From the NCBI GenBank assembly GCA_017302295.1, contig JAFLDS010000008.1, positions 107,604 to 171,603 of the forward strand: 64,000 nucleotides of DNA, given 5' to 3'. The notes under the pieces were generated by a model. It was not told the origin of the DNA. It searched no databases and saw only the letters and a program-made list of their open reading frames with translations. Shown piece after piece: positions 19,185 to 26,778 of the stretch. Source of the stretch: Thauera sp. GTDB taxonomy: Bacteria > Pseudomonadota > Gammaproteobacteria > Burkholderiales > Rhodocyclaceae. The translations under genes and the position numbers were made by a program. Position 1 is the stretch's first letter, and the number at the start of each line of letters is the position of its first letter.

Positions 19185-20096
19185 TCAGGCGGCGACGTAT
19201 TGCTCTGCGCCTGCGCGGCCATGCCAGAAGCCGTTGCAAGGTTCCTCGACCATCAGCGCACGGCTGTCGGCCAGAGCCTCGGCGGGGCTGCGCACGCCAT
19301 CCAGCGCGGCGCGGAACAGTTCGGCGATCTGGCGCGTGTGCGCCCCTTGCGGACTGATGCGCAGCACTTCGGCCTGACCACGCACCGCAGCGAGGTCATC
19401 GAGCAGGTTGTGCACCCGCGCCGACTGCGTCTGCACGCCGTTGAGGGTCAGGAAGGGCTCGCCCTCGCGCGTCTTCAACGGGATGCCGTCCATGAGCGAC
19501 AGGCAGCGGAACTCGCAGGTGTCCTTCTGCAGGTTGAAATGGCGTGCGGTGAAGCAGCGCGCCGAGTGCGCCAGCGGCAGGCGGCCATAGGCAAACACCT
19601 CGGTTTCGACCCGCGTCGGCAGGGCGGCGCGCAGTTCGGCCAGCGCCGCGCCGGACATCTCCGGCGCCACTGCCCAGCGCGTCGCGCCCGACTCCATCAT
19701 CATCGCCAGCGTCGGCGGATTGAAGATGTTCAAGGTCGGGCCGGCCACCCAGTTGCGCACCCCGGCATCGGCGAGCAGCCGCACCGCGCCCATGTCGTTG
19801 GCTTCGACGCGGAAGTCACCCTGCGCGACGATGCGGCGCAGCACCTTGAGGTCCGATTCGGATTCGATCAGCCCTTGCGTGCTCAGCACCACCTCCTTGC
19901 CCGCGGCGGCGAGCACGTCGCCGACCTCGATCCAGTCGTCCAGCCGCAGCTCGTGCCGGCGCGAACACACCGTCTCGCCCAGATAGACGCTGTCGATCGT
20001 GCTTTCGGCGATGTCGGCGTAGAAGTCGAGCACGCTCTGGCGCGGCCAGTAATACAGCAATGGGCCCAGCGCCAGCTTCATCGGGGTTTCGCTCAT
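19185..20096 (-). CDS. ubiV: UbiV, O2-independent ubiquinone hydroxylation protein (U32 family)
   Basis: 303 residues, U32 peptidase-like. Four cysteines in the spacing of the UbiV 4Fe-4S site are visible: Cys44 (GETVCSRRHE), then Cys181, Cys194 and Cys198 in SARCFTARHFNLQKDTCEFRC. The intervals 13 and 4 match those described for E. coli UbiV. Forms a heterodimer with UbiU that hydroxylates the quinone ring anaerobically. Seven bases separate it from ubiU. Confidence 0.92.
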   Translation of the reverse strand: MSETPMKLALGPLLYYWPRQSVLDFYADIAESTIDSVYLGETVCSRRHELRLDDWIEVGDVLAAAGKEVVLSTQGLIESESDLKVLRRIVAQGDFRVEANDMGAVRLLADAGVRNWVAGPTLNIFNPPTLAMMMESGATRWAVAPEMSGAALAELRAALPTRVETEVFAYGRLPLAHSARCFTARHFNLQKDTCEFRCLSLMDGIPLKTREGEPFLTLNGVQTQSARVHNLLDDLAAVRGQAEVLRISPQGAHTRQIAELFRAALDGVRSPAEALADSRALMVEEPCNGFWHGRAGAEQYVAA

Positions 20097-20103
20097 GCGG
20101 GTC

Positions 20104-21117
20104 TCACTTCCACGGACGGTAGTAGGCGCCCAGGGTATGGCTCTGGCCTTCGGACACCTTGTTGAGTTCGGCCATCCAGGCCGGCGTCACCGCGAAGGCG
20201 GCAGGCGCGGCCTGCAATTTGTCGAGTGCGGCACGCCACACCTTGGTCACCTGAGCCACGTAGGCGGGGCTGCGCTGGCGGCCTTCGATCTTGATCGCGC
20301 GGATGCCGATGCGCGCGAGCTCGGGCAGCAGTTCCAGCGTGTTGAGGCTGGTCGGCTCCTCAAGCGCGTAGTAGGTCTCGTCATTGACCTCGAAGCGGCC
20401 CTTGCACAGCGTCGGATAACCGGCGCGCTCGCCGTCGGCGAAGCGGTCGATGAGGATGCCGTTGAGCCGTGTCTCCATGCCGCGCGGCGTGTCTTCCCAG
20501 CGCACATGCTTGCCGGGCGAGCATGCGCCGTTGCAGTTGGGCGATTCGCCAGTGGCGTAGGCCGACAGCGCGCAGCGGCCCTCGACCATCACGCACAGCC
20601 CGCCAAAGCCGAACACCTCGATCTCCACCGGCGTATTGGCGATGACGCTCTCGACCTGCGCCATCGACAGCACCCGCGGCAGCACCGCGCGCTGGATGCC
20701 GAAGCGCTCGTGGTAGAAGTTGATGGCCTCGTAGCTGGTGGCCGAGCCCTGCACCGACAGGTGCAACCTGAGCTGCGGATGCGTCTTCGCCGCATAGGCC
20801 ATCAGTCCCGGGTCGGCGAGGATGACGGCATCGACGCCGTATTCCGCCGCGCGATCGAGCGCGGCCGTCCACGCGCTCCAGTTGGACGCCTGCGGATAGG
20901 TGTTGAGTGCGAGCAGCACCTTGCGGCGGCGCGCGTGCGCATAGGCGATGCCTTCGCGCACCTGGGCCGGATCGAAGTTCAGGCCGCTGAAATTGCGCGC
21001 GTTGGTCGCGTCCTTGAAGCCGAGATAGACGCAGTCGGCGCCGTGGTCGATCGCGGTCTTGAGCGCGGGCAGGCTGCCGGCGGGGCAGACGAGCTCGATG
21101 GAGGGTGTGACGGTCAT
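20104..21117 (-). CDS. ubiU: UbiU, O2-independent ubiquinone hydroxylation protein (U32 family)
   Basis: 337 residues. U32 barrel starting ELVCPAGSLPALKTAIDHGADCVYLG, with SVQGSATSYEAINFYHERFG. The iron-sulfur cysteines are in FGGLCVMVEGRCALS and ESPNCNGACSPG, with intervals 7 and 17 as in E. coli UbiU, plus a later cysteine (PTLCKGRFE). First of ubiU-ubiV-ubiT; together these imply ubiquinone synthesis under denitrifying or anoxic conditions. Confidence 0.92.
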   Translation of the reverse strand: MTVTPSIELVCPAGSLPALKTAIDHGADCVYLGFKDATNARNFSGLNFDPAQVREGIAYAHARRRKVLLALNTYPQASNWSAWTAALDRAAEYGVDAVILADPGLMAYAAKTHPQLRLHLSVQGSATSYEAINFYHERFGIQRAVLPRVLSMAQVESVIANTPVEIEVFGFGGLCVMVEGRCALSAYATGESPNCNGACSPGKHVRWEDTPRGMETRLNGILIDRFADGERAGYPTLCKGRFEVNDETYYALEEPTSLNTLELLPELARIGIRAIKIEGRQRSPAYVAQVTKVWRAALDKLQAAPAAFAVTPAWMAELNKVSEGQSHTLGAYYRPWK

Positions 21118-21212
21118 GAGGATGCGGAGCCCGGTTCTTGAAGCCCCGCAACCCTAAGCGTGCGGACGCGTCGCTGCTTTGACCCGTGTCAAAGGCAGGC
21201 GACGCGGACCCC

Positions 21213-22673
21213 TCAGCGCGAGGTGTGGTGGGTCGTCGCCGCGGCGTGGTGGTGGCCGGCGTGCGGACGGTGGTGCGGCGCCGGTCCGAACAGACCGCCC
21301 ACCAGCATGCCGGTCGCGCTGGCGATCAGGCCAAAGAGCTGCGGCTCGATGTCGCCCGCCGGAACGAAGAGCTCGAACAGCAGCCAGGTCGACAGACCGA
21401 GCACGATCGAAAGCAGCGCCCCCAGGTTGTTCGCACGCTTCCAGAACAGCCCCGCGGCGAGCGGCACGAAGGCGCCGGCCAGGGTGATGCGGTAGGCGTT
21501 CTCGACCATCTTGTGGATGCTGGATTCGGTGCTGGTCGCATACCAGGTGACGAGTGCGGTGAAGGCCACCACGGTGATGCGCGTCGCCCACAGGAACTGG
21601 CTGTCGCGCATTTCGGGGAAGAAGCCGCGCAGCACGTTCTCGGAGAAGGTCACCGAGGGCGCCAGCAGCGTGCCCGAGGCGGTGCTCATGATCACCGACA
21701 GCAGCGCGCCGAAGAAGATCACCTGCGCGGTGAAGGGCATGTATTGCAGGATCAGCGTCGGCAGGATGAGCTGCGAGTCTTCCTGCATCAGCCGCTCGAC
21801 CATCGCCGGGTCGATGATGCTGGCGGTGTAGGCGAGGAACAGCGGCACTGCGGCGAAGAAGAAATAGCTGATGCCGCCGAGCGCGGTGCCCCACACCGCG
21901 ACGGTCTCGTTCTTCGACGAATTCACGCGCTGGAACACGTCCTGCTGCGGGATCGAACCCAGCGCCATGGTGGCGAAGGCGGCGAACCACGCGATCATGT
22001 CGGTGAGATCGAGCGTGGGCAGGAACGCCAGCTTGCCCTCGGCGGCCGCCTTGCCGACCACCGCGCCGAAGCCGCCCGCCATGTCGCCGGCGAGGAAGGT
22101 GACGTAGAGCAGGCCGAGCACGATCACGATCATCTGCACGAAGGTGGTCATCGCCACCGACCACATGCCGCCGAACAGTGTGTACAGCAGCACCACGCCG
22201 GCGCCGATCAGCATCCCCTGGTTCATCGACACCGCCTCGGCCGACAGCACGTTGAACACCAGCCCGAGCGCGGTGATCTGCGCAGCCACCCAGCCCAGGT
22301 AGGACAGCACGATGCAGATCGACAGGATCAGCTCGGTGCTGCGGTTGTAGCGCACGCGGAAGAAGTCGCCCAGCGTCAGCAGGTTCATGCGGTACAGCGG
22401 GCGGGCGAAGATCAGACCGAACAGCACCAGGCACACCGACGCGCCGAGCGGGTCGGAGATCAGGCCGCGAAAGCCATGTTCCAGAAACGTGGCGGAGATG
22501 CCGAGCACGGTTTCGGCACCGAACCAGGTGGCGAACACCATCGCCAGCACGACGATCATCGGCAGGTTGCGGCCGGCGGTGATGTAGTCACGCGCGTTGT
22601 GCACCTGGGTGGCGGCAAACAGGCCGATGCCGATGGAAACGACCAGATAAGCGGCGACGAGCCACAGCAACAT
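21213..22673 (-). CDS. Sodium:solute symporter (SSS family) with His-rich tail
   Basis: 486 residues, about 13 hydrophobic segments beginning with LWLVAAYLVVSIGIGLFAA. Family marks: ITAGRNLPMIVVLAMVFATWFGAETVLG, FARPLYRMNLLTLGDFFRVRY and SSKNETVAVWGTALGG. The C-terminal 24 or so residues are histidine-rich (PAPHHRPHAGHHHAAATTHHTSR), nine histidines in all, an unusual end for this family. Substrate not predictable; the preceding fused arginase/ornithine aminotransferase gene hints at an amino-acid-related solute, but this is only context. Confidence 0.85.
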   Translation of the reverse strand: MLLWLVAAYLVVSIGIGLFAATQVHNARDYITAGRNLPMIVVLAMVFATWFGAETVLGISATFLEHGFRGLISDPLGASVCLVLFGLIFARPLYRMNLLTLGDFFRVRYNRSTELILSICIVLSYLGWVAAQITALGLVFNVLSAEAVSMNQGMLIGAGVVLLYTLFGGMWSVAMTTFVQMIVIVLGLLYVTFLAGDMAGGFGAVVGKAAAEGKLAFLPTLDLTDMIAWFAAFATMALGSIPQQDVFQRVNSSKNETVAVWGTALGGISYFFFAAVPLFLAYTASIIDPAMVERLMQEDSQLILPTLILQYMPFTAQVIFFGALLSVIMSTASGTLLAPSVTFSENVLRGFFPEMRDSQFLWATRITVVAFTALVTWYATSTESSIHKMVENAYRITLAGAFVPLAAGLFWKRANNLGALLSIVLGLSTWLLFELFVPAGDIEPQLFGLIASATGMLVGGLFGPAPHHRPHAGHHHAAATTHHTSR

Positions 22674-22869: not shown

Positions 22870-25005
22870 TCAGTGCATCGCGACCGGGCTTCGGACGGGC
22901 TCCGAAAGGACCTCGCGCAATATTCGCAAGGCGTGATCCAGCTCGGCCTCACCGATCACCAGCGGTGGCGCCAGGCGGATCACATTGCCGTTGGTGTCGC
23001 GGGTGGCGATGCCGCGGGCGAGCAGGTGCTCGGCGACACGGGCCGCGCTCGCCGCCGCGTCGAGTTCGACCCCGATCAGCAGCCCGCGGCCGCGGATGTC
23101 GCGCACCGCAGGCAGGTGCGCGGCGCGCAGTTGGGCGCGGAACTGATCGCCCAGGCGATCGACCCGCTCCCAGATCCGCGTCTCGGCCAGCATGCTCAGC
23201 ACCTCGATCGCCACCGCTGCGCCGAGCGGATTGCCGCCGAAGGTCGAGCCGTGGTCGCCCGGCTGGAACACGTCCATCACCTTGCGGTCGGCGAGGAACG
23301 CGGACACCGGCAGCAGCCCGCCGCCCAGCGCCTTGCCCAAGATGACGCCGTCGGGGCGCACACCCTCGTGATCGCAGGCGAGCAGCCGGCCGGTGCGGCC
23401 CAGTCCGGTCTGGACTTCGTCGGTGATCAGCAGCACCTCGTGGCGGCGGCAGATCTCGGCGCAGTGTCGCAGGTAGCCGGGCGGCGGCACGATGATGCCG
23501 CCCTCGCCCTGTATCGGTTCGACGAGGAAGGCGGCCGTTTCGGGCGTGATCGACGCCTCCAGCGCGTCCGCATCGCCATAGGGGATGCGGCGCAGGCCGG
23601 GCGGGTAGGGGCCGAAGCCGTCGCGGTAGTGCGTGTTCGACGACAGGCCGATGATGGCGATCGAGCGGCCGTGGAAGTTGTTGTCGCAGGCGATGATCTC
23701 GACCCGCTCGGGCGCGACGCCCTTGACCTTGTAGCCCCACTTGCGCGCCGCCTTCAGCGCCGTCTCGACCGCTTCGAGCCCGGTATTCACTGGCAATGCC
23801 CGCTCGTAGCCGAAGGTGGCAGACAGACGTTCGAGCAGCACCGGCAGGCGGTCGCTCGAGAACGCACGTGAGGTCAGTGCCAGGCGCTGCGCCTGGTCGG
23901 TCAGCGCGCGCACCAGGCGCGGGTGGGCGTGGCCGAAACTGACCGCAGAGTAGGCGCTCATCATGTCCAGGTAGCGCCGTCCCTCCACGTCCCACAGCCA
24001 TACGCCCTCGCCGCGATGGAACACCGCCGGCAGCGGGGCGTAGTTGGCGGCGCCGTAGTGGCGTTCCTTCTCCCGCAGCCAATAGGAGCCTGGGCCGAGC
24101 GCGGCGCCCGCCAGTTCTGCCACCCAGCGCGCGCAGTGGCCCTGCGGGTCGAGGTCGGGGCGGTATTCGACGATCTCGAGCCCGATGAAATCTCCGCAGC
24201 CGCGCAGCGTGAGCAGCAGGTCTGCCAGTTCGCGCGGGTCAAGGCCATAGGGTTCGGGGCAGGTCACCGCCGCCATCGCGGCCGGGTCGAGTGCGTCGAG
24301 GTCGATGCTGACGCCGAAGCCGCCTTCGCGGCCGCTACCGGCGCGCGCGATCGCCAGCGCATCGCAGAACACGGCCGGCAGGCCGCGGTCACGGATTTCG
24401 TCCATGTCGAAGATGCGCACGCCGAGGCGGTCGAGCCGCGCACGCTCCTCGGCCTCCCAGGCGCGCGCGCCGACGATGCAGATCCGCGCCGGGTCGAGGC
24501 GCGGCCCGGGAACGCCCGTCAACGCCTCGTCACCCTCGCCGAGCAGGGCGGCGAGCGGCATGCCGTGGATGTTGCCGGAATAGGTCGTGTCCGCCGTGTG
24601 GCCATCGAGATGGGCGTCGATCCAGATCAGCCCCGGCGCACCGCCGGCGCGCCGCGCCAGCCCGCGCCAGGTGCCCACCGCGATCGCATGGTCGCCGCCG
24701 ATCACGAGTGGAAAAGCCGCCTTGTCGAGCGCAGCGAGGTGGTCGGCGAGCCGACGCGCGAACTCGCCATTGGCAGCGAGACGCGTCGCCATGTCGGCGT
24801 CGTCGGCCGGAACCTCCTGCGGTTGCAGTGTTCCCAGCCATTCGGCGGCGATGCCCAGTCCGGCGAGGCGCTCGACCAAGCTGGCCGCTTTCAGCGCGTC
24901 TGGCGCGGCGGCAGACCCCGAATGTGGCGCGCCGAGCGCGGATGCGGCGCCGATGATCTTGAGCAGGCTGTGGGGCCCAGAGGGCATGTGGGCTGCGAGC
25001 GTCAT
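22870..25005 (-). CDS. Fused arginase-family hydrolase and ornithine aminotransferase
   Basis: 711 residues in one uninterrupted frame. Residues about 15-300 are a ureohydrolase: GGDHAIAVGTW (His106), WIDAHLDGHT (Asp130, His132, Asp134) and SIDLDALDP (Asp235, Asp237), the manganese ligands of arginase. Residues about 315-705 are a class III PLP aminotransferase of the RocD type: NTGLEAVETALKAARKWGY, FHGRSIAIIG, VEPIQGEGGI, ITDEVQTGLGRTG (Asp529), LGKALGGGLLPVSA (Lys558) and GSTFGGNPLG. Arginine would give urea and ornithine, then glutamate semialdehyde. The start at 25005 has GGGAGG upstream. Downstream of ubiB and a palindromic element. Confidence 0.9.
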   Translation of the reverse strand: MTLAAHMPSGPHSLLKIIGAASALGAPHSGSAAAPDALKAASLVERLAGLGIAAEWLGTLQPQEVPADDADMATRLAANGEFARRLADHLAALDKAAFPLVIGGDHAIAVGTWRGLARRAGGAPGLIWIDAHLDGHTADTTYSGNIHGMPLAALLGEGDEALTGVPGPRLDPARICIVGARAWEAEERARLDRLGVRIFDMDEIRDRGLPAVFCDALAIARAGSGREGGFGVSIDLDALDPAAMAAVTCPEPYGLDPRELADLLLTLRGCGDFIGLEIVEYRPDLDPQGHCARWVAELAGAALGPGSYWLREKERHYGAANYAPLPAVFHRGEGVWLWDVEGRRYLDMMSAYSAVSFGHAHPRLVRALTDQAQRLALTSRAFSSDRLPVLLERLSATFGYERALPVNTGLEAVETALKAARKWGYKVKGVAPERVEIIACDNNFHGRSIAIIGLSSNTHYRDGFGPYPPGLRRIPYGDADALEASITPETAAFLVEPIQGEGGIIVPPPGYLRHCAEICRRHEVLLITDEVQTGLGRTGRLLACDHEGVRPDGVILGKALGGGLLPVSAFLADRKVMDVFQPGDHGSTFGGNPLGAAVAIEVLSMLAETRIWERVDRLGDQFRAQLRAAHLPAVRDIRGRGLLIGVELDAAASAARVAEHLLARGIATRDTNGNVIRLAPPLVIGEAELDHALRILREVLSEPVRSPVAMH

Positions 25006-25130
25006 GACACACCTCCCGTTCCGCCGACGAGGCGGCTGCGTGCGTGCGATCTTTGCGAGTTGGAGGGGCGAGGGGCTGAATCGTTCAGCGTCTGCCGCCG
25101 CGCCAGCGGGTTCGAATGCAGCGCGGTGCA

Positions 25131-25237
25131 GGTTGGCGGGTGGGGTGTTCGTGGAGGGGCGCGAGGACTGTCCGAGCACCGAGCGAAGCGAGGGCGAGTT
25201 CCGCAGCGATCCGGAACGAACACCCCACCCGCCAACC
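25131..25237. repeat. Palindromic intergenic element, copy A
   Basis: Two 22-bp arms (25131-25152 and 25216-25237) are perfect inverted repeats enclosing 63 nt. The left arm begins GGTTGGCGGGTGGGG. The centre contains CCGAGCGAAGCGAG (25179-25192) and CGAGTTCCGCAGC. The centre is about 85% identical over 41 nt to that of a second element at 53520-53619, while the arms differ between copies but are perfectly paired in each. It lies between ubiB and the arginase fusion gene. Confidence 0.85.
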
Positions 25238-25248
25238 GGTGGGCAGAC

Positions 25249-26778
25249 TCAGCCCAAGTAGCGCTGCACTTCAAGCGCCAGCAGTCCGGCTGCCAGCAGC
25301 CCCACCACCACCAGCATCCACCCCTGCCTGCGCTGCGCCGCCGCCAGCTCGGCCAGGCGGTCCTTCTGTTCCGCGCGGTGATGCGTCGTCTCGACCAGCG
25401 CCTGATGCATCAGGCGCGGCAACTGCGGCATGGTGCCGGCCCAGTTCGGCGCCTCCTCCTTCAGCCCGCGCACCAGCGCGCGCCAGCCCATGCGCTCGTC
25501 CATCCAGCGCTCGAGGAAAGGCTTCGCCGTCTTCCACAGATCGAGATCCGGATCGAGCTGGCGGCCCAGGCCCTCGATATTCAGCAGCGTCTTCTGCAGC
25601 AGCACCAGCTGCGGCTGCACTTCCATTTCGAAGCGGCGCGCGGTCTGGAACAGGCGCAGCAGCGTCTTGCCGAACGAGATTTCCTTCAGCGGCCGGTCGA
25701 AGATCGGCTCGCACACCGTGCGGATCGCCGCCTCGAACTCGTCCACCCGCGTGTGCGCCGGCACCCAGCCGGCTTCGATGTGCGCCATCGCCACACGGTT
25801 GTAGTCGCGCTTGAAGAAGGCCAGGAAGTTCTGCGCCAGGTAGTTCTTGTCCACCTCGTTGAGCGTGCCCATGATGCCGAAGTCGAGCGCGATGTAGCGC
25901 CCGTCGCCATGCACGAAGATGTTGCCCGGGTGCATGTCGGCATGGAAGAAGCCGTCGCGGAACACCTGGGTGAAGAAGATCTCGACGCCGGCGCGCGACA
26001 GTGCCGCGAGATCGGTGCCCTGCGCGCGCAGCACGGCGGTCTGCGAGATCGGCACGCCGTACATGCGCTCCATTACCATGACCTTGCTGCCGCACCAGTC
26101 CCAATACACCTCGGGCACGATCAGCAGCTTCGAGTCGGTGAAGTTGCGCCGCAACTGGGAGCAGTTGGACGCCTCGCGCATCAGGTCGAGCTCGTCGTGC
26201 AGGTATTTGCTGAATTCGGCCACCACCTCGCGTGGCTTGAGCCGCCGGCCCTCGGGCCAGATCTTCTCCAGCAGGATGGCGGCGACCTCGAGCAGCGCCA
26301 GGTCGTGCTCGATGACGCGCTCGATGCCCGGGCGCAGCACCTTCACCGCGACTTCGGTGCCATCGGGCAGCTCGGCGAAATGCACCTGCGCCACCGAGGC
26401 CGAGGCGACCGGGGTGCGCTCGAAGTTGTTGAACACCGCATCGACCGGTTTGCCGTAGAAGTCTTCCAGCAGCGCCAGCGCCTGCGCGGTGGGGAAGGGC
26501 GGTACGCGGTCCTGCAGCAGCGCCAGTTCGTCGGCGAGGTCGGGCGGCAGCAGGTCGCGCCGGGTGGACAGCATCTGGCCGAACTTGACGAAGATCGGGC
26601 CGAGTGACTCGAGCGCGCGCCGCAGCCGCACGCCGCGCGGTTCGGAGAAGGTGCGCCAGAAGAAGACGATGTTCCAGACCCGTGCCAGCCGGCCGCTGGT
26701 GTCGGCGTCGAGAATCATGCGGTCGAGGCCGAAGCGCAGGCCGACGGAGGCGATCTTGGCGAGGCGGAGGAGACGCAC
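25249..26778 (-). CDS. ubiB: Ubiquinone biosynthesis regulatory kinase-like protein
   Basis: 509 residues. Atypical ABC1/ADCK kinase-like ATPase needed for ubiquinone synthesis at the membrane. Family marks: the KxGQ motif [28 protein letters not shown] (about 66-93), [27 protein letters not shown] (the Ala-rich nucleotide loop), [38 protein letters not shown], and a C-terminal membrane segment ([14 protein letters not shown]). The palindromic element begins 11 bp after its stop. Confidence 0.94.

Follow-up and report, generated by a model that had tools for sequence, protein, structure and literature searches.

Can a single polypeptide carry out two successive steps of arginine breakdown, and how did such a polypeptide come about? 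The questions are raised by a gene in the window, a 64,000-nucleotide stretch of Thauera sp. DNA, in which an arginase-family domain and an ornithine aminotransferase (OAT) domain share one reading frame. The features considered are as follows.

22870..25005, minus strand, fused arginase-family and OAT gene (711 codons plus stop; one frame in relatives too)
25012..25017, minus strand, GGGAGG, Shine-Dalgarno-like, 6 nt 5' of the ATG at 25005, as read from the sequence
24103..24957, minus strand, arginase-family domain (residues 17 to 301; PF00491, Mn ligands by alignment)
24073..24102, minus strand, junction (residues 302 to 311; AlphaFold2 model; no ATG for a separate OAT)
22906..24072, minus strand, OAT domain (residues 312 to 700; D529, K558, Y322, Y352, R447, E501, and R677; TIGR01885 and alignment with human OAT)
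25249..26778, minus strand, ABC1/UbiB-like kinase gene, upstream neighbor (PF03109, 262.5 bits; synteny)
21213..22673, minus strand, sodium:solute symporter family gene, downstream neighbor (PF00474, 128.7 bits)

One frame for two domains

The frame runs on the minus strand from an ATG at 25005 to a TGA at 22870 and is free of stops over its 711 codons, which bears out the single two-domain frame of the preliminary description (where no strand was given); translated from the plus strand, the span 22870-25005 has an internal stop. An earlier GTG at 25179 lies in the same open frame (769 aa), but it is the ATG that has the GGGAGG sequence close in front of it.

The fused gene is real and conserved. 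The same fusion recurs at about 54 to 85% identity in many independent assemblies, and chance is thereby excluded. An assembly or sequencing error that deleted the stop between two genes could give a frame of this kind, and some relatives differ from it by just one in-frame stop. However, the uninterrupted frame recurs in many independent assemblies, isolates among them, which refutes an artifact for the betaproteobacterial fusion, although the refutation does not extend to the single Paracaedibacteraceae MAG (L088) described below; we give the artifact reading practically no credence. The frame is open near codon 310, where a stop or frameshift on resequencing was said to speak against a fusion.

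In an AlphaFold2 model of the window protein (22 rows; mean pLDDT, 82.0; pTM, 0.82), a helix at residues 290 to 303 closes the arginase half and a helix at residues 307 to 317 opens the OAT half, leaving a gap of three residues. With pLDDT values below 50 at residues 323 to 359 and in a few other stretches, the model is unfit for reading domain packing or oligomers. Codons 286 to 345 contain no ATG or TTG; the start-like codons there are GTG 295, 328, and 340 alone, and no well-placed Shine-Dalgarno sequence is seen by eye. Judged by eye, the junction has an identical length in 19 of the 22 aligned rows and is longer in the other three (L059, L063, and L088). The best 50 of 1775 matches in a fold search of the model against the PDB are OATs and acetylornithine aminotransferases, and are uninformative for the arginase half.

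The two halves

By sequence, the C-terminal half is an OAT with intact catalytic residues, in agreement with the preliminary description. It matches PF00202 (class III aminotransferase) over residues 318 to 700 (E value, 5e-118) and passes the OAT equivalog TIGR01885 (508.4 bits; cut-off, 378.4), while falling under the cut-off of a second OAT model, NF003145 (PRK04073; 508 bits against 656). Lys558 and Asp529 align with the PLP lysine and its aspartate of human OAT, which we take to be Lys292 and Asp263. Y322, Y352, R447, E501, and R677 likewise align with the substrate-binding residues of human OAT (Tyr55, Tyr85, Arg180, Glu235, and Arg413). The OAT catalytic residues are invariant across the 22 aligned fusion rows, and the solved-structure matches of this half include 3ruy (OAT) and human OAT.

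The N-terminal half matches PF00491 over residues 17 to 301 (E value, 2.9e-53; 181.6 bits against a cut-off of 22), the one PF00491 match in its genome. Its set of six Mn ligands is complete (H106, D130, H132, D134, D235, and D237), and the equivalents of the arginase catalytic His and Glu are there as well (H147 and E280, which we take to be His141 and Glu277 of human arginase). Thus, the catalytic residues are intact in both halves, as had been claimed. The description of the N-terminal half as a complete ureohydrolase stands for the ligands only. The pocket is noncanonical, with His136 where arginases have Asn130 and Glu184 where they have Asp183 (human numbering), and the score of 170.9 bits for the NCBIfam rocF equivalog TIGR01229 lies under the cut-off of 227.6. 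L141, L142, and L077 also score under it (168.6, 173.5, and 174.9 bits).

The ligands were surveyed in 83 fused rows, obtained from 93 fused loci by removing ten duplicates or fragments, with the window's own three loci excluded. All six are found in 76 of the 83; of the remaining seven, five show ligand losses and two are truncated at contig ends. The motif DAHxDxH, with His at the Asn130 position, occurs in all 76 ligand-intact rows, and the Asp183 position holds Glu in 75 and Asp in one (L033). Gene-pair rows (n = 15) have mostly His at the Asn130 position when of the gamma type (His in 8 of 9, Asn in 1) and mostly Asn when of the alpha type (Asn in 5 of 6, His in 1). The unusual pocket is thus a property of the subfamily and not a sign of decay in the window, and the arginase half is, to judge from its sequence, a divergent subtype.

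Distribution of the fusion

In searches that scored the two or three top-ranking candidates of each genome, a full-length, stop-free fused match was found in 12 of 399 genomes of the order (own genome included), in 1 of 398 genomes of the phylum sample (the own genome), and, among 369 genomes of the class, in the own genome plus a questionable one, G907/L171. Within the genus (29 genomes), 16 have the fusion in one match, one has it in pieces over two contigs (G010), two have an arginase-only gene, and in the other ten, of which three are less than 90% complete, nothing matches better than ArgD-like aminotransferases do. The fused gene is therefore dispensable. A scan of genome contigs with peptide patterns taken from the window protein, which is not a census, returned named strains of Thauera, Azoarcus, Aromatoleum, Zoogloea, and Dechloromonas among the best 80 of 462 loci. 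Full-length fusions also exist in other Betaproteobacteria, and the fusion is common to many soil and wastewater bacteria. One fusion (L059) comes from a MAG labelled Bordetella parapertussis, yet it groups with unnamed Betaproteobacteria; the label looks doubtful.

Some candidates were rejected. In L171, the codon at the junction is unreadable (X), as are others elsewhere, and the frame is broken near the N terminus; it was not counted as a third fusion. Constraining it together with the betaproteobacterial fusions was not rejected (AU P = 0.058), in a tree that includes L174 on a branch of 10, which we take to be a wrong extraction; we prefer the both-halves tree described below. Among 32 plasmid records, two match over 80% or more of the query length (41.6% and 45.1% identity), and these, from Azospirillum and Shinella, each proved to be two separate frames.

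Origin of the fusion

When the two halves are analyzed together in a tree, all 23 betaproteobacterial fusions included fall into a single clade (98/98), and the L088 fusion stands outside it, among gene pairs (91/84). A topology in which all fusions are constrained together is rejected (AU P = 0.00016). L088 is the one genome with an unbroken frame among 42 of its order; in the next two listed, G808 and G810, a single in-frame stop separates the halves. A second, independent origin, represented by one assembly, is therefore likely. How widely the fusion is spread, left as a question by the preliminary description, is thus largely answered: there is one old betaproteobacterial fusion and probably a second in one Paracaedibacteraceae MAG.

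The two genes are neighbors in many relatives. In the class sample, 17 of 19 relatives' loci, the best scoring of 53 matched genomes (own genome not counted), have the arginase gene immediately before OAT, and so do all 12 loci fetched from the order of G805 (29 matched genomes); L171 among the 17 and L156 (the same gene as L088) among the 12 read as one frame. In the gamma- and alphaproteobacterial outgroups sampled, arginase and OAT are mostly separate neighbors in the same order. An ancestral adjacent arginase-OAT pair most likely lost its stop codon, once in the betaproteobacterial group, without gaining a long linker. Read-through of the stop codon in gene pairs was considered and rejected: of the 17 arginase-upstream loci of the class sample, 8 are in frame (L171 included) and 9 are out of frame. 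Eight of the nine gene pairs among the first related loci are in frame, with stops between, in a search that ranks long single-frame matches first; the 17-locus list is also ordered by best score and overlaps these earlier loci.

The history is not that of one simple fusion, because five OAT-only genes are placed among the betaproteobacterial fusions in the OAT tree. On that tree, four changes of the fused label are required, and starred branches force three or more of them. A lost arginase half or a transferred OAT would account for these genes. Eight OAT-only loci of the window's order (L106 to L113) have no arginase within about 1.5 kb upstream, and the three OAT-only genomes tested (G057, G188, and G353) have no PF00491 match.

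Relatives with one half lost or altered

Two genomes of the same genus (G002 and G012) carry an arginase-only gene that ends shortly past the expected start of the OAT half, next to the neighbors of the fused locus (the UbiB-like kinase, the symporter, and two U32-peptidase-family genes). In the arginase tree they are nested within fused rows, and neither genome has an OAT above the TIGR01885 cut-off. Another arginase-only member of the family (L145, from G034), whose genome likewise has no OAT above the cut-off, sits elsewhere among the fused rows. Given these separate positions, there seem to have been at least two losses of the OAT half.

The converse is seen in five Rhodocyclaceae MAGs (L074, L075, L080, L083, and L085), all of which show ligand losses in the fused gene (His106 to Gln, His132 to Arg, and Asp237 to Ser or Ala). 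Some 30 aligned codons of the arginase half are missing, the frames are still open, and the OAT half scores well. The branch leading to four of the five measures 1.76 in the arginase tree versus 0.29 in the OAT tree, from whose output one of the four names is missing. By a simple counting method, pairwise dN/dS of the arginase half is 0.165 to 0.346 in these MAGs (8 of 10 possible pairs) and 0.174 to 0.584 in controls (10 pairs of intact fusions). The nonsynonymous ratio of arginase half to OAT half is 2.3 to 3.3 versus 1.4 to 3.0 in controls, and constraint on the ligand-less half may therefore be slightly relaxed. A single-sequence model of L085 has a mean pLDDT of 37, too low for reading.

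All five MAG genomes have a second PF00491 gene elsewhere (246 to 265 bits). Of these, L152 was scored; it exceeds the arginase cut-off (292.4 bits) and has, by eye, the classical Asn and Asp motifs. The simplest reading of these sequences is that the other arginase would have taken over catalysis, with the old half still constrained, perhaps by a role in assembling or regulating the OAT. It is possible, too, that the low dN/dS reflects constraint shared from recent descent or the avoidance of frame-breaking changes upstream of OAT. Relatives in which one half is lost or apparently disabled suggest that the halves are able to work apart, and, to judge from those minus one half or its metal ligands, coupling need not be obligate in every lineage.

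Proposed function and alternatives

In our view, the gene quite probably encodes a bifunctional arginine-catabolic enzyme that would have arisen by stop loss in a gene pair, and both halves are most likely active. The N-terminal, Mn-dependent half would split arginine into ornithine and urea, and the C-terminal, PLP-dependent half would transfer the delta-amino group of ornithine to 2-oxoglutarate, yielding glutamate and glutamate-5-semialdehyde. PutA could oxidize the semialdehyde to glutamate, and urease could recover the urea nitrogen. The own genome has a urease alpha gene (941.5 bits) on the same contig as the fused gene and a PutA-like 1327-codon open frame with a proline dehydrogenase domain, as would be expected of a bifunctional PutA; with these two genes, conversion of arginine to glutamate and ammonia would be feasible. 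The main effect of the fusion is most likely a fixed 1:1 co-production of the halves, and ornithine channeling between them, which the preliminary description expected of a fusion, is no more than a possibility.

We somewhat favor the form of this explanation in which the halves are active yet independent, with the fusion fixing stoichiometry and expression, and ornithine exchanging freely, without channeling. It agrees with (i) the unfused adjacent pairs common in the outgroups, (ii) the arginase-only genes at the same locus in G002 and G012, and (iii) the five MAGs that combine ligand loss with a well-scoring OAT and a second arginase-family gene, whereas the short junction of near-constant length speaks for a fixed geometry that might favor transfer. 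More tentatively, the arginase domain may have come to serve the OAT structurally or as a regulator, beyond its catalysis: one Rhodocyclaceae lineage would then have a metal-less pseudo-arginase for OAT assembly or for sensing arginine/ornithine, its reaction having passed to a separate arginase, and the window protein would both catalyze and gate or feed the OAT.

The substrate of the arginase half could differ from arginine, given its score under the TIGR01229 cut-off and its pocket substitutions, and the half might then be a ureohydrolase for another guanidino substrate, with the aminotransferase acting on a product other than ornithine. The near-uniform His/Glu pocket of the ligand-intact fused rows, in place of what we take to be the classical Asn/Asp, fits this as well. 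However, competing models score far lower than the arginase model (formimidoylglutamase, 69.0 bits; agmatinase, 51.3 bits), the best solved-structure matches of the half are arginases, and the partner half passes one OAT equivalog cut-off; we consider another substrate improbable.

Relation to known systems

In the bifunctional enzyme that we propose, arginine would be taken to ornithine and further within one chain. The same is described for cyanobacterial AgrE/ArgZ, a single polypeptide with PutA as the next step (PMC8262935). AgrE/ArgZ differs in having unrelated arginine dihydrolase and ornithine cyclodeaminase domains and in yielding CO2, ammonium, and proline instead of urea and glutamate semialdehyde. 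An NCBIfam model exists for it (NF052231), and the window protein, with PF00491 and PF00202 alone at an E value of 0.001, lacks its domain set. By analogy, the window protein would be AgrE-like in its working, outside the AgrE family. The arginase pathway of Bacillus (RocF and RocD; PMC4569260) comprises the two reactions predicted here, and its enzymes represent the families nearest to the two halves; they are separate proteins, however, and the window arginase half is under the RocF cut-off. The gamma- and alphaproteobacterial arginase-OAT pairs, to which the Azospirillum and Shinella plasmid records also belong, share the gene order and related sequences in both halves, but have two reading frames instead of one.

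No arginase-OAT fusion model is among the best 25 of 74 NCBIfam families for the window protein. Searches by title, abstract, or exact phrase, whose coverage leaves out most subscription papers, found no literature on such a fusion, nor is it among the listed entries on channeling; the architecture may already be present in domain databases. Should both halves be active, the protein achieves with a different set of domains what AgrE does, the one-chain breakdown of arginine via ornithine. The relatives, which comprise gene pairs, fusions, lone arginase halves, and fusions with a ligand-less arginase half, are natural controls that allow a direct test of what fusing pathway enzymes does with respect to dosage, geometry, channeling, and allostery.

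A different fusion, apparently convergent, was observed in one genome of another family of the same order (G330; L149, 5412-7673, plus strand). It likewise joins OAT to an enzyme of the arginine-to-ornithine kind, but the partner is Arg_dihydro-like (209.9 bits; cut-off, 450) and lies on the C-terminal side of the OAT.

Gene neighborhood

Between the UbiB-like and fused genes lies a perfect 22-bp inverted repeat (25131-25152 and 25216-25237, 63 bases apart). An 18-base core of its arms has no other copy in the genome at up to two mismatches. In 20 relatives checked, the longest perfect repeat is 11 bases, and a conserved operator was thus rejected; a terminator, an operator, or a recent insertion are candidate explanations. 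The symporter adjoins the fused gene in many Thauera, Azoarcus, and Aromatoleum loci and was not found in the Zoogloea loci examined for synteny. Together with two U32-peptidase-family genes, presumably UbiU/UbiV-like, it follows the fused gene in the same direction (19185-22673), an arrangement kept in many Thauera and Azoarcus loci.
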